Shown here: piece by piece, positions 1 through 40,065 of the stretch
Layout of the letters: each line of letters begins with the position of its first letter
Numbering within the stretch: the stretch's first letter is position 1
IMG/VR virus record: IMGVR_UViG_3300042327_000861
Location: 1 to 40,065 of that record
Strand: one strand, 5' to 3'
DNA from: a virus
Length of the DNA stretch: 40,065 nt
The notes under the pieces: model-generated
What the model was told of the DNA's origin: nothing
The model's input: only the letters and a program-made list of their open reading frames with translations
Database searches by the model: none
Translations under genes and position numbers: made by a program

Positions 1-354
1 AGCGGTCCACTTCATCCGCCAGCACGACGCGAATCGGACGGCTGGCTAGCTTCGACGGTGCATTCACGCCGACGATGGCGAGGTGTCCGCCTCTGAACAT
101 CTTGTGGAGCTTCTTCGACTTCGTTGACCTGACTTTGTTCTGGATCTTCGCCGAGATGGCTGGCGTGTCGCGAACCATCGGTGTGAACCGGTCTTCGCTC
201 CATGCCTCGGCCATGTCCTCGGTCGGTTGGAGCATCAGCATCGGACACGGATCATAGTCGATGTAATAGCCGATGGTGTTGTTTAAGATCTCAGTCCAGC
301 CAATCTGCGACGACTTCATGCAGACAACTTTCTCAATCAACGGATCTGAGAGCG
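1..354. repeat. Left copy of imperfect 354-bp terminal direct repeat
   Basis: These bases recur at 39712-40065 with ten substitutions (at 122, 161, 167, 190, 206, 221, 227, 284, 286 and 287) and no indels, about 97% identity. All ten are synonymous in the terminase frame. The repeat lets the contig be closed into a circle through the terminase gene. The mismatches argue against a physical terminal repeat of one molecule and for assembly from a mixed phage population. Confidence 0.95.
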
Positions 355-529
355 CGTCCATGATGCCGCGCTGAAACTCTGAGCGGCTGGTCTTCCACTT
401 GCCAGGCTCGGCGCTGGCTTCACTCGACAAGATGCGCTTGGCATCAGCCCATTGCGAGACCGTCCACTTCGGTGGCGGTTCCCACTGGCGCGAGATATCG
501 CGAAAAAGTTGTGCAAGAGCTTGGCTCAT
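1..529 (-). CDS. Terminase large subunit, N-terminal part (lambda gpA family)
   Basis: This encodes residues 1-176 of the ATP-driven motor and nuclease that packages phage DNA into proheads. It starts at ATG 529, which overlaps the small-subunit stop by four bases (ATGA), and runs off the left edge. The rest lies at the right end, 38303-40065; joining across the 354-bp terminal repeat gives about 645 residues, close to lambda gpA (about 641). Visible here are an N-terminal region rich in Trp and Pro, an ATPase P-loop-like KSSQIGW segment near residues 72-78, and a Walker B-like VVLADEVDRY stretch near the edge. It is the last gene before the contig junction in the late operon and leads into the head genes. 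Confidence 0.93.
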   Translation of the reverse strand, partial: MSQALAQLFRDISRQWEPPPKWTVSQWADAKRILSSEASAEPGKWKTSRSEFQRGIMDALSDPLIEKVVCMKSSQIGWTEILNNTIGYYIDYDPCPMLMLQPTEDMAEAWSEDRFTPMVRDTPAISAKIQNKVRSTKSKKLHKMFRGGHLAIVGVNAPSKLASRPIRVVLADEVDR

Positions 530-1098
530 TCTTCCGGTTCATCGTCGTCCTCTGGCTCAATCTCCTGCGGTTCTTCATTGTGCGTGGCGACATATTGCTG
601 CGTGACGATCTCGGGCGAGTAGTCCGCCAGCTCTTTCAAGGCTTCGTTGACGCCGTGCTGAATGGCTTCTTTCCGCTCCTGAATCGTCATGCCTTCAAGC
701 TGAGATGCCAGCGTGGTCGGCAGGCTGAGCAGTTTGGCGCGGGCATTCCCAATCATGTCAGCCCAGACGGCAGCGACAGCTTCGGCATCATGCGCCGTGC
801 CTTTCTTCAGATCGGCATCGAGCTCGGCAATGTCGGCCTTCGCTTTTGTCAGGCGTGCGCGGTGCGCTTCATAGTCGTCAGGCTTGTCAGACTCTCCGGC
901 GCTGCTCCACTGGTTCACCTTTCGCTCTTGCAGGTACTTGATGTAATTGCGGATTGATTGCCACAGGTCGTATTTCCCACGCGCCACGCGGATGACGACG
1001 CCATCGGCTACGAGCTGGTGAATGCGGACGGCGGTGAGGTTGAAGAGCTTGGCAAGCGTGCCGACTTCGACGCTTGGGCTGTCTGCGGGTCGGCTCAT
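526..1098 (-). CDS. Terminase small subunit (Nu1-like)
   Basis: A 190-residue protein that should recognise the packaging site and recruit the large terminase subunit. Near residues 10-45 there is a helix-turn-helix segment (VGTLAKLFNLTAVRIHQL, then the wing VADGVVIRVARGKYDL), as in lambda Nu1-type small subunits that begin with a winged helix. The middle is helical and charged, and the C-terminus is very acidic (EPEDDDEPEE). It overlaps its neighbours on both sides by ATGA (Mom-like gene upstream, large subunit downstream), indicating translational coupling. The family call rests on the winged-helix fold and the position directly before the large subunit. Confidence 0.85.
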   Translation of the reverse strand: MSRPADSPSVEVGTLAKLFNLTAVRIHQLVADGVVIRVARGKYDLWQSIRNYIKYLQERKVNQWSSAGESDKPDDYEAHRARLTKAKADIAELDADLKKGTAHDAEAVAAVWADMIGNARAKLLSLPTTLASQLEGMTIQERKEAIQHGVNEALKELADYSPEIVTQQYVATHNEEPQEIEPEDDDEPEE

Positions 1099-1874
1099 GT
1101 GTCAGAAGAGTGGAGCGGTGAGGTCGGATTTACACCGCCCTCTTCTGGCTGGAAGCCAGACGCATCGTTGTCAATGCTTTCACCGCGTTTTATCGGCTGG
1201 CCCTTATACATGCCAGCACCGCGCCGTTGTATTTCGCTAAACGGCAGAATTGGCACTGTCAAGCGTGAACGAGCGGCAGGATTGAGAAAGTAAATGTAGC
1301 GGAGCATGTAGCCAGGCACTCGCTTTGCTCCAGTTCTTGCCATGAATGCAGACATGGACTCGCCTAATTTGAAGCCGACGCGGTTGCGTAAAAGCGTTCC
1401 TTTTGCTCGCAGCCCAATGTCTGCAAAGATAAAACCGTCGGGCATTTGAAGCATCGTTGTGTTTTGCTTTATGCCGGTAAGTGAAAACCCACTGGCTCGA
1501 TAGATGGTGCCGTCGCCACATTGAGTGCCATCAGCAAAAGATATAACCCACTCGATGTTCGGGTAATGCTTGCGAATGAGCCGCATGGCCACGGACAAAG
1601 CACGGCTTTCACTGTTTCTAGGAAGCCAATCAGCGAACGCCATTCTGTTCAGCTCTAGAAAGTCGTTCCATCCTGTGTCTTCGACCAGATGCTGAATGTG
1701 GCTCTTTTGCAGCGATGGCCCGAACTGCATCGCTCCTCCACATCGGCCATTCAAAAAGACACCAAAATTGAGCTGGCTGTTGATTGCCCCCTTGCCGGAG
1801 TAGTGGCAAGATTGCACCACCTTGTTGGCATCCGTGGAAGAGATAGGCTTGACGATGATTTCCTTGGCAGTCAT
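1095..1874 (-). CDS. Mom-like DNA modification protein (adenine carbamoylmethylation)
   Basis: A 259-residue protein with a GNAT-like fold, resembling the Mom family of phage Mu, which converts adenine to N6-carbamoylmethyladenine and protects phage DNA from host restriction. Family-like features are the HYSGKG motif at residues 24-29, the FGVFLNGRCGGAMQFG segment at about 37-52, a conserved ELNRMAF stretch at 74-80, and ADGTQCGDGTIYRASGF at 114-130. The C-terminal 40 residues are polar and probably disordered. It starts at ATG 1874 overlapping the ParB-like gene stop by ATGA, and ends overlapping the small terminase start, so it is made late, just before packaging. The assignment is by motif recognition; the chemistry in this phage is inferred. 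Confidence 0.8.
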   Translation of the reverse strand: MTAKEIIVKPISSTDANKVVQSCHYSGKGAINSQLNFGVFLNGRCGGAMQFGPSLQKSHIQHLVEDTGWNDFLELNRMAFADWLPRNSESRALSVAMRLIRKHYPNIEWVISFADGTQCGDGTIYRASGFSLTGIKQNTTMLQMPDGFIFADIGLRAKGTLLRNRVGFKLGESMSAFMARTGAKRVPGYMLRYIYFLNPAARSRLTVPILPFSEIQRRGAGMYKGQPIKRGESIDNDASGFQPEEGGVNPTSPLHSSDT

Positions 1875-2506
1875 GGATTTTGCCGATTGAATGTCTGGCA
1901 GACGAACGCCAGCGCGTTGCCGTTGCTGTTTTCGTTCACGCCGCTTTCGCCGTGGCCCATACTTTTCGCTTTTGTGATTGCGGCTTCCACTTCTTCGGCT
2001 TGCTCATCATGCAGCGTAAAAGTCTTTTGCTGGAAGGGTTCTTTGTCGCCGCTATTCAAGTCCGGCATTGCCTGCTCATCGGCTGCAAACTCTTCAAGCG
2101 TCTTTGTTAGCTCCGCTTCATTGAAGCCGGTCAAGCCAAGATCAAAGCCGTGATCGTCGCGAAGGCTCACAAGCTCCACTCTGAGTAACTCCTCGTCCCA
2201 GCCAGCGTTCAGAGCCAATTTATTGTCGGCGATGACGTAGGCTCGGCGCTGAGCTTCGGTGAGATGCCCAAGCCGGATGCACGGCACCTCTTTCATGCTG
2301 AGCTTGCGAGCTGCCAGAACTCGGCCATGACCGGCAATGATGCCGTCGGCCTCGTCGATCAAGATCGGGTTGGTGAAACCAAACTCGCGTATTGAGGCGG
2401 CGATCTGCGCCACTTGCTCTTCGCTGTGCGTCCGGCTGTTGTTGGCGTAGGGGATAAGCCTGTCGAGCGGCAGCCGTTCCAGGCTTTCAGGTATTGTTGG
2501 GTTCAT
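1871..2506 (-). CDS. ParB-like N-terminal domain protein
   Basis: About 211 residues from the preferred ATG at 2506; a TTG at 2536 could add ten residues. The N-terminal 100 residues form a ParB/sulfiredoxin domain: LIPYANNSRTHSEEQVAQIA, then FGFTNPILID and the signature GHGRVLAARKL, followed by VIADNKLALNAGWDEE. In many phages and genomic islands this domain is fused to the front of DNA methyltransferases. Here there is no methylase domain, only a short C-terminal tail with a NENSNGNAL motif. It is translationally coupled (ATGA) to the Mom-like gene, so a role in targeting or regulating DNA modification is a reasonable inference; partitioning or nuclease activity is an alternative. Confidence 0.82.
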   Translation of the reverse strand: MNPTIPESLERLPLDRLIPYANNSRTHSEEQVAQIAASIREFGFTNPILIDEADGIIAGHGRVLAARKLSMKEVPCIRLGHLTEAQRRAYVIADNKLALNAGWDEELLRVELVSLRDDHGFDLGLTGFNEAELTKTLEEFAADEQAMPDLNSGDKEPFQQKTFTLHDEQAEEVEAAITKAKSMGHGESGVNENSNGNALAFVCQTFNRQNP

Positions 2507-2620
2507 TTCTTGCGATTTTGCAAAGTAAAGCGGCAATTTTCAAGTCGCATCTAGAAAAATAATGCGGCCTTTTGCTTCCCCTCATGCCCGCCCCCTAGGA
2601 AGGACCCAAAGGGGGGGGTG
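2507..2620. other. Intergenic region before the ParB-mom-terminase genes
   Basis: A 114-bp gap between the Mor-like gene and the ParB-like gene. It holds a G8 run near 2611-2618, a CCCCCTAGG segment near 2591-2599, and one TTTTGCAAAG half-site near 2516-2525 just upstream of the ParB-like start. A late promoter controlled by the Mor-like protein, or a packaging (cos-type) site, could lie here. I see no convincing -10/-35 pair. Confidence 0.35.
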
Positions 2621-3013
2621 TCAAAGCTCACGCTTAGGCTTGCGCCATCCGCTTGAGGTCGTGCCTTTAGCTCTCAGGCGGCGGACATAGCGGCAGCTGA
2701 CGCCCTGCTTGGCTGCGATTTCTTTGCTGCTCATGCCTTGCTCGATGTCAGAGAGTATGGCCTGTGCCTTGCGCTCGGCTGCGATCTTGCGTTTGACGCC
2801 ACGAGCAGAAGGGTAAGGCAGCAACTCGCCACCGAACACGCGTTTCAAAGCCTTAAACTCGTCAGGATGTAGGATGCCGGACAGGCGGTGATCTTTCACG
2901 TCACGAGCAGGCACATAGACTTGGCGGTTTTCGTATGTGGCCCGCATAAGCCTCACGGCAGCATCCAAGCCAATGACGTCAGCAACAGAGCGAACAGAGG
3001 GGGGCACGCGCAT
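2621..3013 (-). CDS. Mor-like transcriptional activator
   Basis: A 130-residue protein with the layout of the Mor/C activators of Mu-like phages. There is an N-terminal helical part, then a RLMRATYENRQVYVPA segment (residues 22-37) like the conserved beta-strand region (GGxxVYIP) of Mor, and a C-terminal helix-turn-helix, MSSKEIAAKQGVSCRYVRRLR, at about 94-114. In Mu, Mor and C switch on middle and late genes, including mom. This gene is the first clearly assignable gene of the leftward late operon, directly upstream of ParB-like, Mom-like and terminase genes, so a late activator role fits. The N-terminal dimerisation part is shorter than in Mu Mor. Any HTH regulator is the fallback call. Confidence 0.65.
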   Translation of the reverse strand: MRVPPSVRSVADVIGLDAAVRLMRATYENRQVYVPARDVKDHRLSGILHPDEFKALKRVFGGELLPYPSARGVKRKIAAERKAQAILSDIEQGMSSKEIAAKQGVSCRYVRRLRAKGTTSSGWRKPKREL

Positions 3014-3064
3014 GGCCCAGAGGGTGCCATCTCTGAAGCTGTTCGCAAGGCAGAAGGAGCAAAA

Positions 3065-3265
3065 TCAGCCAATGCGAGTCACGTAGCAGCCAATGCCCTG
3101 ATTGAGAGTAGCAGCGGATCGGCACGAGAACGCTTTGTTGACCTTGTAGCCATACTTGGATGCCGACCTTTGAACGTTAGATGGCAGGCCCGGCACAAAT
3201 GTTGTGTCGCCGATTTCGCGCGGGAAATAAGGAATGTAAGGGGAAGCTGCTTGGTGCTCGGTCAT
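3065..3265 (-). CDS. Small putative DNA-binding protein
   Basis: A possible 66-residue protein starting at ATG 3265. The C-terminal part (SASKYGYKVNKAFSCRSAATLNQG, then IGCYVTRIG) looks like a small helix-plus-wing DNA-binding fold. It sits between the TGCAAA-rich control region and the Mor-like gene, in the same direction, and a TATAAT-type -10 box lies 17-22 bases before the start. No Shine-Dalgarno sequence is visible. An opposing-strand reading frame covers the same bases but shows no family features. I cannot name the family. Confidence 0.45.
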   Translation of the reverse strand: MTEHQAASPYIPYFPREIGDTTFVPGLPSNVQRSASKYGYKVNKAFSCRSAATLNQGIGCYVTRIG

Positions 3266-3281
3266 GTCATAGGGTGCAATA

Positions 3282-3287
3282 ATTATA
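3282..3287 (-). promoter_or_regulatory. Candidate late-operon -10 box (TATAAT)
   Basis: A perfect TATAAT on the minus strand, 17 bases upstream of ATG 3265. No TTGACA-like hexamer lies at the usual 16-18-bp spacing (AAGGCA is found there), which would suit an activator-dependent promoter. TGCAA repeats occur immediately upstream at 3293, 3310, 3321 and 3333. Promoter activity is inferred. Confidence 0.4.
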
Positions 3288-3292
3288 GCACA

Positions 3293-3592
3293 ATGCAACC
3301 ACTTTGCCTTGCAAAGCCCATGCAAAACAAAATGCAAAGCTCCAAACTCCTTCATTCTCAACGTCCTAGCCCCCTTTACTTACTTACTTTGCAACTTTGC
3401 AGGATATATATATATATAGTAAAAAAATCTGGTCTCGTCCTCCCATATAGGGAAGAACTCCAATTCAGTGTTTTTTATATAGTGTCTTGCGCTCCGATTT
3501 CGGCGCAAAGTTGCAAAGTAACGTTGTAATCTCTTATGAATAATGCGTTTATGACTTTGCAACCATGGCAAAACACCTGCTAAACTTTGCGC
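3293..3592. promoter_or_regulatory. TGCAAA iteron cluster and AT-rich control region, possible replication origin
   Basis: About 300 bases with no convincing gene. TGCAA(A/C) occurs in one orientation starting at 3293, 3310, 3321 and 3333, at 11-12-bp steps for the last three. A perfect 17-bp inverted repeat (TTACTTTGCAACTTTGC at 3384-3400 and its complement at 3505-3521) flanks a 104-bp AT-rich core with a (TA)n tract at 3404-3418 and a TTTTTTATATAG stretch. More TTTGCA copies lie at 3554-3559 and nearby. Clustered iterons and an easily melted core beside the primase gene suit an origin; operator clustering for the early/late switch is equally possible. Confidence 0.5.
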
Positions 3593-3627
3593 AAAAAACG
3601 CCGCTGGCACATGGCAAGCGGCGTTTT
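3593..3627 (-). terminator. Rho-independent terminator after the primase gene
   Basis: A 9- to 11-bp GC-rich stem (AACGCCGCT at 3597-3605 pairing with AGCGGCGTT at 3617-3625) with an 11-base loop, followed on the minus strand by six T residues. It lies 22 bases past the primase stop and should end the leftward early transcript. The plus strand also has four T residues, so it may work in both directions. Confidence 0.8.
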
Positions 3628-3648
3628 CGGCGTTTTCTGCGGCTGCTG

Positions 3649-6267
3649 TTAAACTGCCAGCGTCTCCTCAAAGATCGACATCGGCAGGCGCACGGCCCGA
3701 GTCTGAGCTCGGTTGAAATGTGATGCCGCGATTGTTTTGGCCCCATCGAGCCGCTTGAGTTGGTCGGCCCATTTGCCTGCGAATGAGGTTTCAGAAAAGA
3801 TTCGACGCAGCTCTTGATGGCTGTTGGAGATGTCCATTCCATCACGGCGCATCCCGATTCCATGCCGTTCCAAAGTCTCTCTTGCTGTCCTTCGCTGTGA
3901 ATCGTGTGCGCTGATTGAAAGCGCCCTGACAATCAGCTCCCCGATGCTGCGTCGCACGTTGCGGCCATCCTCCTCGTGCTGGATTAACCCAGAAAGAAGA
4001 TGTGCGAGGCATTGTTTTTCGTCCATATCGGACTCATTCGCTGCGAATGTGCTCCAGTCTTGTTTCGCGCACCAGCTCGCCGCTTCCTCGTGAGTGATCT
4101 GGCGCGAAGATGTGAGCGCAAAGGCACCGGCAAGCAAGGCTCCAATCTGGTCACCGTCGCGCTGTGCTCCGAGATGTCGAGTGCAAGCGGTCGCAAAGGT
4201 GTGGGCATTCACAGCGATTGTTTCGGCCAGGTCAATCGCACGGCTGCGAATAGCTGCACACCAGTCGGTGTTTGCCGCTGTGCCTTCCCAGTGTGCCATC
4301 AGCACATCCCATTGATCGGCGGCATCCTGGCCGTGGCGCTTGAACAGCTCCAAAGCGGTGATGCGGCTTAGGTCGGCCCGTTGAGTTGCTGCGACACCGA
4401 TGCTGGAAAAACAAAATGACGAGCGGATGTGAAACGCCTGAGCATGGCCACCAGCGGTTCCTTTGATGATTCGCCCTCCACTGTCACGGCTTGCCTGCCT
4501 CGCAAGGATGAGGATCTGCTGGAAACGTGCAAGGTCGCGCTGGTTCTCGGTTTCCGCCTCATCAAACATGACCGGCAGCGCATCACAGCCTAATGATTGC
4601 CGAATGCCGGCCTCGGTCGTGTTGGATTGCACATAGAGTGCCATATTGCCAAGCAGTGGCCGCACGATGCGCTCAATGAGCCAGGTCTTGCCTGAGCCAG
4701 ACGGGCCAGTGATCCAGATGTGCGGTCGCCAGTCGAGCACGCCGCAGATTGGAGCGCACACCAGCCAGCCTGATAACAGAAGGTGGTCGATGGGGTTCTT
4801 GAGGTTGAGGCACTTTGTCAGGTCGAGCATTCGGCTTGCCTCGCGGGAAGTGGCAGGCGGCACGGCCTCAACCTTGATGCGTTTGGCTCGCTGATAAACA
4901 AATTCAGACTCCCATGATGAAAGCGCGTGAGGCATGTTGCGAACCATCAGGCAGTCGCCCGCGTGATAGACGACCGTGCCATTGTCGAGCCACGAGCCAC
5001 GGCCACGAATGTCAGCCGGATCAAATACTCGGCGCAGAGATTGCTGAATCAAAGCGTTGGCTGCAAACATCCAGTTGACGCTTCCACCCTCATCCTCGCC
5101 CTTGCCGGGGAACATTCGCGCCCACCAATCAAGCGGTGCCAGTTGTAGCAGGTCGATCTTGTTGTGCCCTTTGCTGTTAAGCTCGACCACCTGCCTGCTC
5201 GCATGACTGAGATAGTAAAAAGCGCCCATGTCGTGCCCAAGGATCTTAAAAGGCCATTCGGTTTCCGGCTCGCTCGGCTCAGTGATGCCGCTCGGCTCTG
5301 AGATGGTTGGCTCATCCTGCGCAGGTCGCGCTGGCTCGTAGGGCAAAGCAGACTTGATCAGGTCGGTGAGCTGATGCTTTGTCCAGCCCTCTTCCACTGC
5401 GTCAGCCACATCCCAGCCGTCGCCCTTACCCTCTGGCGGTGTGATCATGCGGATCTCGCAGCCTAGCGCGTGCAAGGTCTGCGCGATCTCTTGCGCGGCC
5501 TTGTGCCCAGGCTCGTCAGCATCCGGCCAGATAGTGACTTTCCGGCCCTTGATCGGCGTCCAATCGGCGTGTTTTACGGCTTTCCCACCACCTGGCCATG
5601 TAACCGTCAGCGCGCCGAACTGGCGCAAAGCATCGGCGCACTTTTCGCCCTCGACGATAAACACTCGGACGTCAGGTTTCTCAGCTACCAGCGGCAGGCC
5701 GTAGAGCGGGCGCGGCTTGGGAAACGACAGCCAACACCATTTTTCCTCCTGTGTCTCGACGTTGCGGCCCCAGGTCATCGGCATGACCTCTTTGCCACCT
5801 TCCGACTTTGTGAACCGGCCAATCCAGCCGATGGTGCGCCCCTCGGCGTCTTGGTAATGCCAGCGGCCAGCGGCCTCGCCGTAATTGAAATGACGCATTG
5901 TTGGCGGTGCCACGTTTGCCGGTGCTGGCACAACCTGAGTCCATGCTTGGCGCTTTGACTTCGGTGCCGCGGCTGGTGGATGGTCGGTCTGAATGCCTAA
6001 AGTCTCAGCGATCTCCTTGGCCGCTTCCAGCTGGCTGCACTGCTTGATTGCCGCCAGTAGAGCGATGAGGTCGCCACCTTTCTGATCTCCGGCAAAGTCG
6101 GCCCACTTGCCAGTTCTGAGGTTGATGCTCGTGGATTCGCCGGATGAGCCGTGAAGGTCGCCACAAAGCCACTCGTGGCCGTTTTTACGTCCGGCAGGTA
6201 GCCAGCGGGTGACGAGAGTTTCAGCGCTGGCAAGCGCGGCTTGTGAGATAGTGGGAAAGTCTAGCAT
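3649..6267 (-). CDS. Primase-helicase replication protein (TOPRIM plus P-loop ATPase)
   Basis: An 872-residue protein probably priming and unwinding DNA at the phage origin. Residues 1-95 resemble the N-terminal region of phage primases (KWADFAGDQKGGDLIALLAA) but keep only one cysteine, so the usual zinc ribbon is missing. A TOPRIM domain follows: VFIVEGEKCADALR at 202-215 and the acidic PDAD at 248-251. A Pro/Glu-rich linker near 310-338 leads to a superfamily 3 or DUF927-like ATPase with Walker A GPSGSGKT at 521-528 and Walker B VMFDEAE at 566-572. It ends just before a strong terminator and the iteron region, as expected for an origin-linked replication gene. Confidence 0.88.
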   Translation of the reverse strand: MLDFPTISQAALASAETLVTRWLPAGRKNGHEWLCGDLHGSSGESTSINLRTGKWADFAGDQKGGDLIALLAAIKQCSQLEAAKEIAETLGIQTDHPPAAAPKSKRQAWTQVVPAPANVAPPTMRHFNYGEAAGRWHYQDAEGRTIGWIGRFTKSEGGKEVMPMTWGRNVETQEEKWCWLSFPKPRPLYGLPLVAEKPDVRVFIVEGEKCADALRQFGALTVTWPGGGKAVKHADWTPIKGRKVTIWPDADEPGHKAAQEIAQTLHALGCEIRMITPPEGKGDGWDVADAVEEGWTKHQLTDLIKSALPYEPARPAQDEPTISEPSGITEPSEPETEWPFKILGHDMGAFYYLSHASRQVVELNSKGHNKIDLLQLAPLDWWARMFPGKGEDEGGSVNWMFAANALIQQSLRRVFDPADIRGRGSWLDNGTVVYHAGDCLMVRNMPHALSSWESEFVYQRAKRIKVEAVPPATSREASRMLDLTKCLNLKNPIDHLLLSGWLVCAPICGVLDWRPHIWITGPSGSGKTWLIERIVRPLLGNMALYVQSNTTEAGIRQSLGCDALPVMFDEAETENQRDLARFQQILILARQASRDSGGRIIKGTAGGHAQAFHIRSSFCFSSIGVAATQRADLSRITALELFKRHGQDAADQWDVLMAHWEGTAANTDWCAAIRSRAIDLAETIAVNAHTFATACTRHLGAQRDGDQIGALLAGAFALTSSRQITHEEAASWCAKQDWSTFAANESDMDEKQCLAHLLSGLIQHEEDGRNVRRSIGELIVRALSISAHDSQRRTARETLERHGIGMRRDGMDISNSHQELRRIFSETSFAGKWADQLKRLDGAKTIAASHFNRAQTRAVRLPMSIFEETLAV

Positions 6268-6332
6268 GGGGTCGGAGATGCTGCCGAGTCGGGTGCGGTC
6301 GGCAAGGGTCAGTGTGTGGGAATGTGAGGAAT

Positions 6333-6506
6333 TCAGCCTCGGATGACAATGAGCAGATGGGCGGCTTCGACTTCAACGCCTGAAATAGTGGTGCCGCCTT
6401 CGTCATCCAGTGTTCCAGCTGATTCAAAGCGGACCTGCGTGTCTGGGTAATTGCCGAGGAAAGCGTGGGCCTCCTGAAGGCGTTCGATAAGTTCAACGAG
6501 ATTCAT
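6333..6506 (-). CDS. Small hypothetical protein (57 aa)
   Basis: A short gene starting at ATG 6506, which carries the CACACTATG start context shared by other early genes of this phage, and ending at TGA 6333. The product begins MNLVELIERLQEAHAFLGN and has a central DDEGGTTISGVEVE stretch before a hydrophobic LLIVIRG end, consistent with a small alpha/beta fold. It sits 65 bases upstream of the primase-helicase start, in the same direction. I do not recognise the family. The shared start signal and codon-like composition are the main support. Confidence 0.65.
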   Translation of the reverse strand: MNLVELIERLQEAHAFLGNYPDTQVRFESAGTLDDEGGTTISGVEVEAAHLLIVIRG

Positions 6507-6556
6507 AGTGTGTGGGATTTTGCGCGTTTGCGAGTCGCGCCCCTCGGGTGAGGAAT

Positions 6557-7006
6557 TTAGAGCATCCCGTGTTCACGGAATGAAAAGTGTCTTTCCTCGC
6601 CTATGATTACATGATCAATCAATTCAATCTGTAACATTATGCCAGCCTCACGAATTCGGCGAGTTATTCGTCGATCTGCTTCGCTTGGCATTGGGTCGCC
6701 AGATGGATGATTGTGCGCAAGCATAAAAGCATGAGCAGCGCCAGCAATCACTGGTCGAAATACTTCGCGTGGGTGACAAGTGCATTCATTCAGACTGCCA
6801 AGGCTCACGAGATGAAACCCGATGCAATTTAGCTTGGTATTCAGCAAAAATACAACGACCGCTTCCTTGTTTGGGTCATACCAATCGGAGCTTGTGACGT
6901 ATTCCTTCCAGAGATTTTTGGCTTTTTCAGGCGTGATGCATACCTGCGGAGATTGCTCATGCAAGCGGACGGTTTTGATGCTGATTTCGGCAAAGCTGTA
7001 TTTCAT
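6557..7006 (-). CDS. RadC-like JAB/MPN domain protein
   Basis: A 149-residue protein of the RadC/YeeS type, a JAB1/MPN metalloprotease fold common in phages and genomic islands. The JAMM metal-binding signature is complete: Glu48 in NKEAVVVFLL, HNHP at 98-101, Ser102-Gly-Asp, and Asp111 in PSEAD. Unlike chromosomal RadC (over 200 residues), it lacks the N-terminal helix-hairpin-helix domain. It sits in the early replication block between a hypothetical gene and the primase, suggesting a DNA metabolism or anti-defence role. The biochemical function of this family remains unsettled. Confidence 0.88.
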   Translation of the reverse strand: MKYSFAEISIKTVRLHEQSPQVCITPEKAKNLWKEYVTSSDWYDPNKEAVVVFLLNTKLNCIGFHLVSLGSLNECTCHPREVFRPVIAGAAHAFMLAHNHPSGDPMPSEADRRITRRIREAGIMLQIELIDHVIIGEERHFSFREHGML

Positions 7007-10197: not shown

Positions 10198-10234
10198 AGT
10201 CGGGTGGCGGAGGGGTCCGTCACCCGACTTTTTT
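10198..10234 (+). terminator. Hairpin with T tract at the integrase 3' end
   Basis: A 14-bp stem with one G-T wobble (10198-10211 pairing with 10216-10229), GGGG loop, then a T run on the plus strand. The stem overlaps the last codons and stop of the integrase. On the minus strand no T tract follows, so it reads as a terminator for plus-strand transcripts, although no plus-strand gene is apparent. It may protect the integrase mRNA end or stop antisense transcription. Confidence 0.6.
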
Positions 10235-11362
10235 ATGGGCGAATGACAAGATCGTCGCCGTTGCCCGCGATGCGTTGCGATGACCTGCACTGCCGAGGCT
10301 GTTGATGTATCGCTCAGTCGTCGTGAGCTGCTTGTGTCCTAGCAGGTCGGCAATCTCTCGCTGAGTAGCTCCAGCCGCGTGCGCGTAGCTACCTACCGTG
10401 TGACGTAGATCATGGATGCGACAGCCGGTAATGCCTGCCGCTTTGCAGACGGCCCGCCATGCCTTTTGATGGCCAGACATCGGCCCGCCTGTGCGCCCAG
10501 GAAGGATAAACACGGACGAGCGCGGCAGCTCATTGAGGATCTGCATCACGTCCGGCGAGAGTGGCACCGTGCGAGCGCCGGTCTTGCTGCCGTCGTGCGG
10601 TATCCTGAGCGTCTGGTTGATCTCATCCAGCCAGCTCCACTGAGCCAGCCGCCACTCAGAGAGCCGCAGGCCGGTCAGGATGAGCAGGCGGAAAAGAGAG
10701 CGGGTTGACTCCATGACGGTCGTGCAGGTTTCCAGCGCAGTGAGCAGCCGTGCGATTTCATTGGCTTCAAGAATGCGCTCTCGGTGCTGTTCGGGGTAAT
10801 GATCGACATACCGGCACGGGTTGGAGTGCTGCGGCCTCCAGCGCCAGCGCTCGGCCAGACTCAGCGCTTTGGATAGGCAGGCCAAGACGCGGTTGGCTTG
10901 GGTCGGAGTTTCGGCCATGCCGCGCCGGATCTTGAGCACGTCCGTCTCGGTAATGTCCGCCACCACGACGTCACCGAGTCGCGGGATGATGTGCAGCCTC
11001 CATGCCGTTTCGTAGGCTTCCCTCGTCCGCGCTTTGCGCTGCTGGCAGTGCTCATCGAGCATCCTGTCGCGGAGGTCGGAGAGCCGTGGCGCTTCCCTCG
11101 CGGCGGTGCGTTCCATCTTTGGGTCGCGGCCATCCTTCGCTGCCCGTTTGAGGTCGCGTGCTTTTTCGCGTGCCTCGTCCGGCAGTAGCTCGGCGGTCGT
11201 GCCAATCGTGAGCAGTCGCTCAGTTCCCGACGCCGTGCGAAACCGCAGGACATAAGATCGGCGGCCACTGGCGAGGACTCGAAGGCCAAAGCCTGGCAGC
11301 TCTGAATCCCATGTGAAGCCGACTGGAGCGGAGTCGGCAAGGCGTTTGGTGAGGCGTGGCAT
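10220..11362 (-). CDS. int: Tyrosine recombinase integrase
   Basis: A 380-residue integrase that should insert the phage into a tRNA-Lys gene. From ATG 11362 it begins with an arm-binding domain of the DUF4102 type (PVGFTWDSELPGFGLRV, SYVLRFR), then a core-binding SAM-like domain (residues 92-190), then the catalytic domain with Arg233 (TGLRLSEW), Lys260 (GSKTGARTVPL), His317-x-x-Arg320 (HDLRH), His343 (GHKQ) and nucleophile Tyr352 (TTERYINS). All expected residues are present, so it should be active. The start lies one base after the upstream stop. The attP site is about 0.9 kb upstream. Confidence 0.95.
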   Translation of the reverse strand: MPRLTKRLADSAPVGFTWDSELPGFGLRVLASGRRSYVLRFRTASGTERLLTIGTTAELLPDEAREKARDLKRAAKDGRDPKMERTAAREAPRLSDLRDRMLDEHCQQRKARTREAYETAWRLHIIPRLGDVVVADITETDVLKIRRGMAETPTQANRVLACLSKALSLAERWRWRPQHSNPCRYVDHYPEQHRERILEANEIARLLTALETCTTVMESTRSLFRLLILTGLRLSEWRLAQWSWLDEINQTLRIPHDGSKTGARTVPLSPDVMQILNELPRSSVFILPGRTGGPMSGHQKAWRAVCKAAGITGCRIHDLRHTVGSYAHAAGATQREIADLLGHKQLTTTERYINSLGSAGHRNASRATATILSFAHKKVG

Positions 11363-11363
11363 G

Positions 11364-11669
11364 TCATGGCTCCTGAGTGATGAAGGGTTGGAGTTTGGCG
11401 ATGGCTTGTTGGTCTGGATACGGGGATGCCTTGATGGCATTATGCGCCTCCCTGATAGCCTCGCGCATGGCGGCAATCTCCAAAGCCGGATCGGTCATTC
11501 CAGTGCAGGCGTTGACGCAAGAAACGGCACGCTGAATTTTTGCTTCATCGATTACGTAATCAATGCCAGTCAAAACGGCGTCATCGTCTCGGCTTTCAAT
11601 AGAGGGCTCGCCTTGGCTGAATTTCCAGGGCTCGCCGTAGTCGGGTGTTGGTGTGGTGGGGGTGGTCAT
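11364..11669 (-). CDS. Hypothetical early protein with NAC(A/T)G motif
   Basis: A 101-residue protein starting at ATG 11669, overlapping the previous stop by ATGA, with CACACC just before it. It contains YGEPWKF near the N-terminus and RAVSCVNACTGMTDPALE in the middle, a pattern found in many small phage proteins of unknown function (often RIVACVNACAG). The C-terminal half is helical. It precedes the integrase by one base and is probably co-translated. No function can be given. Confidence 0.8.
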   Translation of the reverse strand: MTTPTTPTPDYGEPWKFSQGEPSIESRDDDAVLTGIDYVIDEAKIQRAVSCVNACTGMTDPALEIAAMREAIREAHNAIKASPYPDQQAIAKLQPFITQEP

Positions 11670-37826: not shown

Positions 37827-38315
37827 TTAGAATCGAACGGCAATTCGCGGCCCTAGTCCGCTGATGCCTTTGTTGCGGCGGTTTTCTTTCTGCACCTCAG
37901 AAGCGAAGTGAGAGCGGAGTTGTAGCAGCTCAGCGACGCTATAGCGTTCAAGCTCGCGGTTGTTGATGCGATACCGGCGCACGCCTTCCTTGGCCTGTCC
38001 TGCCAGCATTGCGTCGATCATCTCCAGCGCCTTCCTTGCCTCGGTGCGAATGTCGCCGACACGTAGAGACGCCAGAAGCTCAAAGGTCTGCGTGAACGCA
38101 ATACGCTTCACATTTCCGGCATACGTCGCCCATACCTGCACAGCGTATTGCCCCGCCTGCATGGCGTCCGTTGCAATGTTTACGCGCCACGTCTGGCCAT
38201 CCAGCGTCATGGCGTCCGTTGACGTGCTAGGTCCACCAAGGCGCGCTTCAACAGCCGTAGCATCCGCCACGATTGCCTCGATGGTGAGTGTCTCGCCTTG
38301 AGTCAGTTGCGCCAT
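37827..38315 (-). CDS. gpW-like head completion protein with N-terminal beta domain
   Basis: A 162-residue protein. Its C-terminal part (AMLAGQAKEGVRRYRINNRELERY and VAELLQLRSHFASEVQKENRR) matches the small lambda gpW/gp6-type connector that stabilises DNA in the head; lambda gpW has only 68 residues. The N-terminal 90 residues form an immunoglobulin-like beta fold (GQTWRVNIATDAMQAGQYAVQVWATYAG), an extra domain. It overlaps the terminase large subunit by 13 bases and precedes the portal gene, the lambda A-W-B order. Confidence 0.8.
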   Translation of the reverse strand: MAQLTQGETLTIEAIVADATAVEARLGGPSTSTDAMTLDGQTWRVNIATDAMQAGQYAVQVWATYAGNVKRIAFTQTFELLASLRVGDIRTEARKALEMIDAMLAGQAKEGVRRYRINNRELERYSVAELLQLRSHFASEVQKENRRNKGISGLGPRIAVRF

Positions 38316-40065
38316 GAATTAATAAATGATGTGCTTCGTCGCCTAGGTTTGGCCTTTGGCTTGAGTTGCTGGGTCGCATTCTGCGGCTCAGGCTTTGCCT
38401 CGTCTTGTGCGGTTGGTTCCGGCTCAGGTTTGGCTTTCTCGATCTGTATGGTCTGAGTGCTCCGTTTCATCTTCAATGCTAGCTTGTCGAACTGCGGCGG
38501 TTGCATGACAAGTGCGGCGAATGCATAAACGCGGCAGTCCAGCGCTTCGTTTCGCACTCCGTTGGATTTCTGCCACTCACGCACGGCAAAGCCTTTGACG
38601 TAGCGAGTCATCAGCTTCTCGGCCACGAGCTGCCTGAACCACTCGGCTTCGCGGCTGGCAGGGAAATGACAGTAGCCAGCGCCAGGGGAGTCGAGTTTGA
38701 GGCGGTTTCTCAATGTCATCTTGGCGTTGTCCACACCGACGATGAACACGTCCACCGGCCTTTTCACCTTGCCAGAGCGGCGGCGATTTGGTGCCCCGAT
38801 GACCGGAAGGCCAGCGCCACCGCGCCCCTTGATGGCAAACACGCCGGAAAACTTGTGCCGTTTGGCGTAGCCATAGACGGCCTGGGTGTTGTGTCCACCG
38901 GAGTCAATGCAAGTGCGAGCGATGCTGATTTCCGTGCCCTGCTCATGCCGCCAGAGCTTCCGCAGGTAGCTTGTCAGCTCTGCCCACGGCGAACCTGCTT
39001 GATCCTCGGGTGTGTCGGGGTCGCCGTAAATGATGTGGTAGTCAATCGACCAGCTCTGTTCACCGGCTCCCCATGCCACGACCTCGATTTCCAAACGGTC
39101 CGGCTGCACGTCCACGCCAGCTGTCAGGATAAGCCCTTGCCGCGGCACGTCGTGCGCTTCTTGCTCAAAGCGTGGCCTGTTCATCAAGTCCTCGACTGTG
39201 ATGTCCTCGCCGCCACCATCCCACGTCTCGCCCAAGATGGTGTTCACGAACACCTTCATTTGCTCGGGGTCTTTTTTCGCTTCGAGGAACGCTTTCACCC
39301 GGTCGGCAATCGGTCGCCATGGTGAATATCCCGCCCAGATGTGAAAGCCTGCGGTGCCCCTGAATGGTGCGTGTGCTTTCCAGCTTCCACGGCGCACGGC
39401 AGCGTTTTTCTGCGCGTCGGTGTAGTAGCCGTCGCAGTGCGGGCATATCCACAGCGCTTTCTTCGGGTCGTTCTTCGCCGGTGAGTCCGGCCCCCATCTT
39501 ACGTTTGCCCATTGCAGCGTGTGCGCCTCTCCGCAGTGCGGGCAGGGGATGTAATAGTAGCGCTGGTCTGAGAGCTGGAACTCTTGCTCGGTGCGGCTTT
39601 GATCTTTCCAGACTGGCGTGCCGCCGAGTAGGATCTTGCGATTCCAAAAGGTTTCCGTGCGTCGCTCTGCCAATAACAGCGGGTCGCCTTCTTTGCCTGA
39701 GCTGGCTGGGTAGCGGTCCACTTCATCCGCCAGCACGACGCGAATCGGACGGCTGGCTAGCTTCGACGGTGCATTCACGCCGACGATGGCGAGGTGTCCG
39801 CCTCTGAACATCTTGTGGAGCTTCTTCGACTTTGTTGACCTGACTTTGTTCTGGATCTTCGCCGAGATGGCAGGCGTATCGCGAACCATCGGTGTGAACC
39901 TGTCTTCGCTCCATGCTTCGGCCATGTCCTCAGTCGGCTGGAGCATCAGCATCGGACACGGATCATAGTCGATGTAATAGCCGATGGTGTTGTTGAGTAT
40001 CTCAGTCCAGCCAATCTGCGACGACTTCATGCAGACAACTTTCTCAATCAACGGATCTGAGAGCG
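38303..40065 (-). CDS. Terminase large subunit, C-terminal part (lambda gpA family)
   Basis: The remainder of the terminase that begins at 529. The portion seen covers VVLADEVDRYP (Walker B), GTPVWKDQSRTEQEF, a zinc-binding pair CPHC..CPHC region around YYIPCPHCGEAHTLQWANV and ALWICPHCDGYYTDAQ, and the nuclease domain (ILTAGVDVQPDRLEIEVVAWG, TCIDSGGHNTQAVYGYAKR) with acidic metal ligands. The C-terminal tail is Lys/Pro/Glu-rich (KPEPEPTAQDEAKPEPQ) and holds the fourth 19-bp repeat. The duplicated 354-bp segment at the right edge differs from the left copy only by synonymous changes. Confidence 0.95.
   Translation of the reverse strand, partial: LSDPLIEKVVCMKSSQIGWTEILNNTIGYYIDYDPCPMLMLQPTEDMAEAWSEDRFTPMVRDTPAISAKIQNKVRSTKSKKLHKMFRGGHLAIVGVNAPSKLASRPIRVVLADEVDRYPASSGKEGDPLLLAERRTETFWNRKILLGGTPVWKDQSRTEQEFQLSDQRYYYIPCPHCGEAHTLQWANVRWGPDSPAKNDPKKALWICPHCDGYYTDAQKNAAVRRGSWKAHAPFRGTAGFHIWAGYSPWRPIADRVKAFLEAKKDPEQMKVFVNTILGETWDGGGEDITVEDLMNRPRFEQEAHDVPRQGLILTAGVDVQPDRLEIEVVAWGAGEQSWSIDYHIIYGDPDTPEDQAGSPWAELTSYLRKLWRHEQGTEISIARTCIDSGGHNTQAVYGYAKRHKFSGVFAIKGRGGAGLPVIGAPNRRRSGKVKRPVDVFIVGVDNAKMTLRNRLKLDSPGAGYCHFPASREAEWFRQLVAEKLMTRYVKGFAVREWQKSNGVRNEALDCRVYAFAALVMQPPQFDKLALKMKRSTQTIQIEKAKPEPEPTAQDEAKPEPQNATQQLKPKAKPRRRSTSFINSWRN
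38403..38421 (-). repeat. 19-bp dispersed repeat, copy 4
   Basis: Same 19-mer and orientation as the other three copies, inside the codons for EPTAQD in the terminase tail. Confidence 0.85.
39712..40065. repeat. Right copy of imperfect 354-bp terminal direct repeat
   Basis: Corresponds to bases 1-354, with ten substitutions and no indels. It indicates that the contig represents a circular or circularly permuted phage genome assembled from more than one closely related molecule. The window repeats the terminase codons for residues about 59-176. Confidence 0.95.

Follow-up and report, generated by a model that had tools for sequence, protein, structure and literature searches.

We analysed the late operon of a phage genome held as IMG/VR virus record IMGVR_UViG_3300042327_000861 (the window, that is, the whole stretch of 40,065 nucleotides (nt) under study, is the complete virus record), in which a non-canonical tRNA-Gly-like RNA gene, hereafter the element, lies inside the 3′ end of mom, the gene of a putative adenine-hypermodifying enzyme. 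In phage Mu, the product of Mom is a glycinamide-type adenine. The late genes, the element and the integrase gene of the phage are as follows.

2621–3013, minus strand: Mor/C-like late transcription activator (phrog_836 'late transcriptional activator', 6.2e-18)
1871–2506, minus strand: protein with a ParB/sulfiredoxin-type N-terminal domain and a Mom-associated C-terminal tail (ParB_N, phrog_620, phrog_498)
1095–1874, minus strand: mom, adenine hypermodification GNAT (PF25680, E 2.4e-51)
1111–1186, minus strand: non-canonical tRNA-Gly-like RNA gene (R1 covariance model, covariation and fold)
526–1098, minus strand: terminase small subunit, TerS (phrog_57, 4.3e-34; its start overlaps the mom stop in ATGA)
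2–529, continuing at 38303–40063, minus strand: N-terminal part of the terminase large subunit, TerL, of the gpA type (PF05876, 1.9e-43)
10220–11476: tyrosine-type integrase (phrog_1)

The original prediction, made from the letters without database searches, had read a Mor-like activator, a ParB-domain protein and a Mom-like enzyme directly before the terminase genes, with ATGA overlaps, in a phage with a tyrosine integrase. Pfam and PHROG profile matches and a coordinate check bear out the order and the overlaps (three in the late operon, all exact), and the phrog_1 match confirms the integrase. The element did not figure in that prediction.

A Mom protein with a disordered C terminus

The Mom identity, also proposed in that prediction, holds: the 1095–1874 product matches phrog_1384 (1e-45) and PF25680 (174.7 bits, cut-off 27.1), and the latter match excludes a plain GNAT acetyltransferase. 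The catalytic residues S124 and D149 of Mu Mom correspond to S90 and D115 in the window protein and are identical in Mu and 14 other aligned proteins, divergent ones included (the S124 alanine mutant of Mu Mom is titled inactive in PDB 8bv8). The same entry, Mu Mom, is the nearest solved structure to an AlphaFold2 model of the window protein in a Foldseek search (mean predicted local distance difference test score (pLDDT), 82.8). The conserved domain spans residues 6–213; residues 224–259, which contain the tRNA region, have pLDDT values below 50 and are predicted to be disordered, and Mom C termini past about residue 226 show poor conservation at the protein level. At the place of the GNAT acyl-coenzyme A (CoA) loop, the aligned Mom proteins mostly carry P-R/K-N-S/T/A-E-S, a loop that would fit a donor other than CoA.

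Ten divergent or paralogous Mom proteins that we checked all match PF25680 (6.5e-12 to 9.4e-44). The prediction had treated Mom as typical of transposable Mu-like phages; Mom relatives are, however, encoded in 92 phage records, most of them from phages whose names do not suggest a Mu-like type (Enterococcus 25, Salmonella 10, Klebsiella 8). Finding mom in an integrase phage is therefore unsurprising by itself. In three loci (L006, 5238–6011; L007; L008), a further and divergent member of the Mom family is encoded between the ParB gene and mom (that of L006 is 23% identical, PF25680 6e-37), and the element is at the 3′ end of mom in all three. In Vibrio phage ICP1_2006_A (L408, 54696–55277), the product of a gene annotated as hypothetical shares 58% identity with a protein of the Mom family, and no element is nearby.

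Anatomy of the element

The element is 76 nt long and sits inside the disordered 3′ end of mom, whose stop codon, overlapping the TerS start, follows 13 nt past the CCA. It comprises a 7-bp acceptor stem (GCGGTGA/TCACCGC) with U73 and CCA (1111–1114), A8, a 4-bp D arm without GG, an anticodon loop CTTCCAG with U33 and the anticodon TCC (UCC; 1151–1153), and a 5-bp T arm with a bulged A (1124) and T loop TGTAAAT. At minimum free energy (MFE; −33.2 kcal/mol, z −4.1), its RNA is predicted to fold into a cloverleaf that includes the bulge. None of the canonical tRNA-Gly features U8, G18G19, TTC T loop and regular T stem is found in it; the features of glycine identity (TCC anticodon, GCG/CGC acceptor, U73 and CCA) are all present. 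Bacterial glycyl-tRNA synthetase (GlyRS) recognizes C35, C36, the first acceptor pairs (G1-C72, C2-G71 and G3-C70) and U73. Judged by sequence, the lost GG and the bulged T stem may weaken binding to EF-Tu. ARAGORN calls no tRNA in the window, and the Rfam tRNA model, although matched over positions 1–70 of 71, scores 20.6 bits, under its cut-off of 29; this failure of both tools tells against an ordinary tRNA. At the equivalent place in three related loci (L005, L006 and L007), ARAGORN calls tRNA-Gly(tcc).

Conservation and covariation of the element

We scanned mom 3′ regions for tRNA-like pairing, ignoring the anticodon and CCA and allowing one bulged T-stem base at a cost in score (the bulge had been noticed on reading the sequences and was then allowed; bulge-free parsing missed or mis-set elements). 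Removal of exact duplicates of the 3′ region reduced 176 loci to 160, and the scan found the element in 107 of these; 102 scored ≥14, 101 of them with an NCC anticodon. The same combination of score and anticodon occurred in 0 of 160 dinucleotide shuffles, 2 of 959 stretches taken elsewhere in these loci and 2 of 160 reverse complements, the last two being probably L150 and L170, which carry the element on that strand. The shuffle controls exclude a chance fold. A bulged T stem is present in all 101 NCC elements, despite its cost. Among their 88 unique sequences, U73 is found in 88, a GCG start in 85, a bulged A in 84 (T in 4) and an encoded CCA in 65. The wobble base is free (TCC 43, ACC 37, CCC 7, GCC 1), base 33 is T in only 26, base 55 is G in 58, and the D region measures 19 nt in 47 and 11–13 nt, leaving no room for a D arm, in 27.

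In 31 ungapped 76-nt elements, 17 of 21 pairs had changed on both sides and 98.0% of the alignment cells were paired, a result reached by none of 500 shuffles; double changes numbered 163, against a shuffle mean of 41, and slid structures were 36–43% paired. Pairing of the acceptor, anticodon and T stems is partly circular here, since a pairing score had served to select the elements. The D stem, unused in the scan, is the independent part and shows both-side changes in three of its four pairs.

Sixty-seven of the 88 unique elements lie wholly within the mom frame; 46 of them share one register relative to the mom codons and 21 share a different one, as would be expected were it the RNA and not the protein that is kept. 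A location inside mom, in the window with the mom stop and TerS start 13 nt after the CCA, would also suit an uncharged, cis-acting tRNA-like structure of the mRNA, either a processing signal between mom and terminase or a control of mom translation or stability (the role of Com in Mu, where mom is toxic and tightly regulated according to PMC4461284). Such a structure would have no need to conserve glycine identity (NCC, U73 and the GCG acceptor), CCA is encoded in 65 of the 88, and elements also occur upstream of the gene, past its stop, on the opposite strand and at a distance; we regard a purely cis-acting role as improbable.

Linkage of the element to mom

R1, a covariance model built from 31 elements (the window and 30 loci among those counted here), scores the window element, one of its seeds, at 93.0 bits. 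Near-duplicates were left out of the viral count (L004, L021, L031, L032, L042, L049, L058, L060, L068, L089 and L102–L104; 97 of 110 sources kept, window included). With the window set aside, R1 places an element at mom and on its strand in 92 of 96 viral loci; for genome loci the figure is 44 of 67. Twelve further loci have an R1 match elsewhere: L054; L122, L127 and L130, at the mom 3′ end just past the cut; L151, L168 and L173, 0.3–0.5 kb from mom; L131 and L138, 0.7–1.3 kb from it; L150 and L170, on the strand opposite mom; and L153, an ordinary-looking match 2 kb upstream. The opposite-strand elements (bulged A in both) and the distant ones of L131 and L138 (bulged T and C) argue for an RNA that acts in trans.

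Two tandem elements stand at one mom gene in L002 (7786–7853 and 7858–7926), L140 (4801–4973) and L158 (1499–1642); the L140 copies have 6-nt anticodon loops and no bulge, and the second is without NCC. The close mom loci without an element are L026–L028 and the genome loci L132, L133, L136, L149, L152, L154, L159–L161, L163, L174 and L177.

A blind scan for an exact T-arm and acceptor motif approached the linkage from the element (locus totals of this and of the Mom-relative, tail and divergent-Mom scans are lower bounds). Among the matches listed, a Mom relative lay on the same strand at 114 of 119 loci, and four of the five loci without one were within 240 nt of the end of the available DNA. 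The element was 3′ of the Mom relative in 64 (in L182, 1.3 kb beyond) and upstream of a divergent one in 50, cases that were found via the element and give no rate for Mom genes. In 36 of the 38 upstream cases for which a start codon was found, the first lay 2–59 nt past the CCA. The 119 listed loci include redundant ones; 108 of their elements parsed well (83 unique cores), with CC at the expected place of the anticodon loop in 104 and loops of 6 or 8 nt in 44. Elements just upstream of highly diverse Mom genes were seen in L186, L188, L190, L193, L196 and L199 and likewise in L205, L225, L239, L279 and other blind-scan loci, many with 8-nt (for example, TATTCCAA) or 6-nt anticodon loops.

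Integrase phages often use tRNA genes as attachment sites, and this phage encodes an integrase; the element might accordingly be the remnant of an attachment site, a host tRNA-Gly gene of which the integrating phage carries a copy. It lies, however, 9 kb from the integrase gene and beside Mom genes at 114 of the 119 listed blind-scan loci, and host tRNA-Gly genes have no bulge. Its full length, covariation and non-host features make a relic barely credible.

Departure from decoding tRNAs

For comparison, we took eight tRNA-Gly genes of the hosts from the same genomes: every one shows U8, GG and U33, together with a TTC T loop and a regular T stem (ARAGORN called ten tRNA-Gly genes in the 16 regions examined; those in L304 and L305 are the mom elements of L151 and L172). 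Across the elements, these decoding features are lost to varying degrees, but C35, C36, the first acceptor pairs and U73 are kept. To our knowledge, the anticodon ACC is hardly used by bacteria for glycine. The pattern is as would be expected of an RNA that is charged with glycine but kept off the ribosome.

The cloverleaf, the CCA and the Gly anticodon, together with the ARAGORN calls of tRNA-Gly at some mom genes, would also fit an ordinary phage tRNA that aids the decoding of glycine codons late in infection. We find this highly improbable in view of the 88 unique elements, all with a bulged T stem: only 26 have U33, 58 have G55, 37 have ACC and 27 are too short in the D region to form a D arm. 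The 6- or 8-nt anticodon loops in 44 of the 108 parsed blind-scan elements weigh the same way; moreover, ARAGORN finds no tRNA besides the element in loci L002–L030. A precedent, described in PMC4052509, is known from Staphylococcus aureus, in which three of five tRNA-Gly have weak EF-Tu features, with GG replaced, and are thought to secure the supply for FemXAB cell-wall synthesis.

A ParB-type partner with a Mom-associated tail

The 1871–2506 product matches ParB_N (4.4e-6; 27.1 bits, cut-off 26.3), phrog_620 and, over its N-terminal part, phrog_498, a methyltransferase family. Its ParB-type domain covers about residues 9–144 and its C-terminal tail (about 1874–2104) carries the motif NxNSNGNA; no helix-turn-helix follows ParB_N, Pfam at E up to 1 giving ParB_N and one weak unrelated match. 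The prediction had held that ParB domains are normally fused to methyltransferases and that a separate Mom seemed here to have taken the place of the methylase. The domain is indeed of that type, about 56–64% identical over 120–150 residues to the start of phage DNA methyltransferases (best methyltransferase-annotated matches); with the tail described below, the proteins do not, however, look like stripped methyltransferases.

A profile of this tail, seeded by the window and 20 other loci, was applied to 168 close Mom loci for which 300 nt or more of upstream sequence was available, which included the 20 and were drawn from Mom relatives in IMG/VR, bacterial genomes and the blind-motif-scan loci. 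The tail gene lies upstream of mom in 165 (135 directly adjacent, 30 within 2.5 kb) and was not found in 3. Read by eye, the N-terminal ParB/sulfiredoxin-type domain varies among loci (GHGR, GNHT, GNGI and GGNMR versions) and the tail of about 70 residues with NxNSNGNA is constant. The best 80 of at least 571 loci in a tail-only search all have Mom downstream (67 adjacent, 13 at 0.3–1 kb). Searched against 50,697 phage records (E up to 0.01), the last 59 tail residues match nothing but Psychrobacter phage Y8A, which itself encodes Mom, and the ParB proteins beside Mom therefore look Mom-dedicated. Among divergent Mom loci of the blind scan with enough upstream DNA, 2 of 80 have a tail gene. 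The ParB part seems to be a partner used generally by phage DNA-modification enzymes, and the tail looks like Mom's own; as judged from gene neighbourhoods, ParB–Mom is a conserved unit.

The ParB-type gene occupies the position of Com in Mu and overlaps mom, as would a mere mom regulator that replaced Com and had no part in DNA targeting; its N-terminal domain, of the type fused to DNA methyltransferases, speaks against so limited a role, which we consider possible but doubtful. The version of the original prediction, in which the ParB protein licenses late adenine modification just before packaging and no RNA takes part, agrees with the gene order and linkage. It leaves the conserved tRNA-like element unexplained, and the order relative to the packaging genes may merely reflect late expression; we hold it to be distinctly improbable.

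Proposed mechanism

Modification in Mu depends on tRNAGly for glycyl transfer, according to a February 2026 conference report (PMC12908700), and an element beside mom would for that reason most simply be the glycyl carrier of Mom. We consider it quite probable that the late operon carries a cassette of a ParB-type adaptor, Mom and a dedicated non-proteinogenic tRNA-Gly that acts as Mom's glycyl donor. This proposal joins the genes, element, covariation, linkage and non-canonical features found in the present analysis to the tRNAGly dependence of Mu given in that meeting report; from them we infer excision, charging, use by the window Mom, escape from EF-Tu and the role of ParB. A single late transcript would carry the ParB-type gene, mom and the element. 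RNases would excise the element from the late RNA, and host GlyRS would charge it via C35-C36, G1-C72, C2-G71, G3-C70 and U73. Ordinary tRNAs have decoding and EF-Tu features that the element lacks, and once charged it would therefore be reserved for Mom, which would move the glycyl group onto adenine in phage DNA to give, as in Mu, a glycinamide-type adenine that blocks restriction, all before packaging. The ParB-type protein would probably hold or target Mom on DNA via the Mom-associated tail. Excision would sever the transcript past the last conserved codons of mom and ahead of TerS, and the stop codon of mom would be lost; any one transcript may therefore yield Mom or tRNA, but not both. 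The odd C termini of these Mom proteins would be explained as translated tRNA. More broadly, we think it probable that this is a widespread phage system in which a DNA-modifying enzyme has its own stripped-down, ribosome-incompetent tRNA-Gly carrier, joined in one clade by a ParB-type clamp.

Several observations weigh against this proposal. To release the element, the reading frame of mom would have to be cut. MFE folding was not significant in two of six elements folded (L090, z −1.4; L112, z −1.0). Foldseek gives a donor other than CoA no direct support: the matches after Mu Mom are CoA-type acetyltransferases, with no aminoacyl-tRNA transferase among the 50 listed. No R1 element was found in 15 of 163 main-set loci, within the DNA examined. 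In the 5-bp scheme, no bulge is seen in L030, L142, L151, L153, L164, L166 and both L140 copies (several of these bulge-free elements retain ...CGACC or ...CCACC, and the bulged stem may be shorter in them); the minus-strand match of L105 is a poor tRNA, and L162 carries A73. R1 also gives ordinary host tRNAs 28–53 bits, and 30 loci seeded it, so R1 bits alone are no proof of the D-armless cases. Among 20 Mom loci of named phages (Mu, ICP1 and RaK2 included; flanks 1.2–3 kb), no element was found in 19, the exception being Y8A; the lone R1 match among the other 19, in Methylophilales phage Melnitz, was rejected as a tRNA-Trp by ARAGORN. When divergent Mom loci were collected by protein sequence only (best 80 of at least 585), no element was found in 74 of the 80, and it is always upstream in the other 6; one class-2 protein used as query gave only 3 loci.

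The element is thus near-universal in the ParB-tail clade and scattered elsewhere. Since many mom loci show no element, Mom is presumably functional without a local copy, and phages without one would have to use host tRNA-Gly.

Other features of the record

The 354-nt ends of the record (1–354 and 39712–40065) repeat each other with 10 mismatches within the terminase gene, and the TerL gene is split by the record ends. From this sequence arrangement, the record probably represents a complete genome that closes into a circle of about 39.7 kb; the mismatched ends perhaps come from two close strains. Mu Mor and Mu C match phrog_836 as well (1.2e-10 and 2.1e-11), and a Pfam search of the 2621–3013 product gave no Mor match at E < 1. 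Behind the primase gene, a strong inverted repeat followed by a T run (3592–3675, minus strand), with a weak ncS01 match, is perhaps a terminator before the late module. A run of eight C on the minus strand (2611–2618), between the Mor-like and ParB genes, is a possible slippage site. Rfam matches to ncS01 and SNORD103, in positions 1–7000 of the window, are below cut-off and were read as chance or terminator.

Implications and comparison with known systems

If the proposal is true, tRNA genes have a new job, with a virus-encoded tRNA serving DNA modification. Together with the Mu tRNAGly report, it suggests how some phages secure a glycyl donor late, when ribosomes compete. The elements would be natural minimal substrates for defining the requirements of Mom and GlyRS, the way in which the modified adenine is made and the part played by ParB become directly testable, and the element signature could annotate 'hypothetical' phage genes and missed tRNA genes. 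A full-text literature search, which covered few subscription journals, returned in the text available no account of a mom-linked tRNA gene or a ParB–Mom unit; the group behind the PMC12908700 report may well know of the element. Within the known Mom system, the element appears to be the part for which no close precedent in DNA modification was found.

With the com-mom system of phage Mu (PDB 8bv8), the window phage has the Mom family and the catalytic residues in common, and presumably also the glycinamide-type adenine and the dependence on tRNA-Gly. Unlike Mu, it has no Com directly upstream; a ParB-type gene with the Mom-associated tail overlaps the mom start instead, and the phage has its own tRNA-Gly-like gene (none was found beside Mu mom), an integrase and a gpA terminase. 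Psychrobacter phage vB_PmaS_Y8A (OQ059336) has the order Q–ParB–Mom–TerS–TerL, with the ParB tail as in the window and two tandem D-armless elements directly after mom; its terminase belongs to a different family according to a table in PMC10434257. That paper treats ParB as a chromosome-partition protein and names open reading frame 69 as Mom; the Mom beside ParB is annotated as hypothetical. The ParB-domain phage methyltransferases of phrog_498 have a similar N-terminal domain (about 56–64% identical in the best matches), whereas the catalytic partner in the window is a separate Mom and the tail domain replaces the methyltransferase fusion. Finally, the S. aureus tRNA-Gly of PMC4052509 and the elements alike have lost the D-loop GG and altered the T stem; the former are thought, and the latter proposed, to escape EF-Tu and supply tRNA-dependent transferases. 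The elements differ in being phage-borne, in their bulged T stem and free wobble base, in the absence of a D arm from part of them, and in an acceptor that is presumably DNA.

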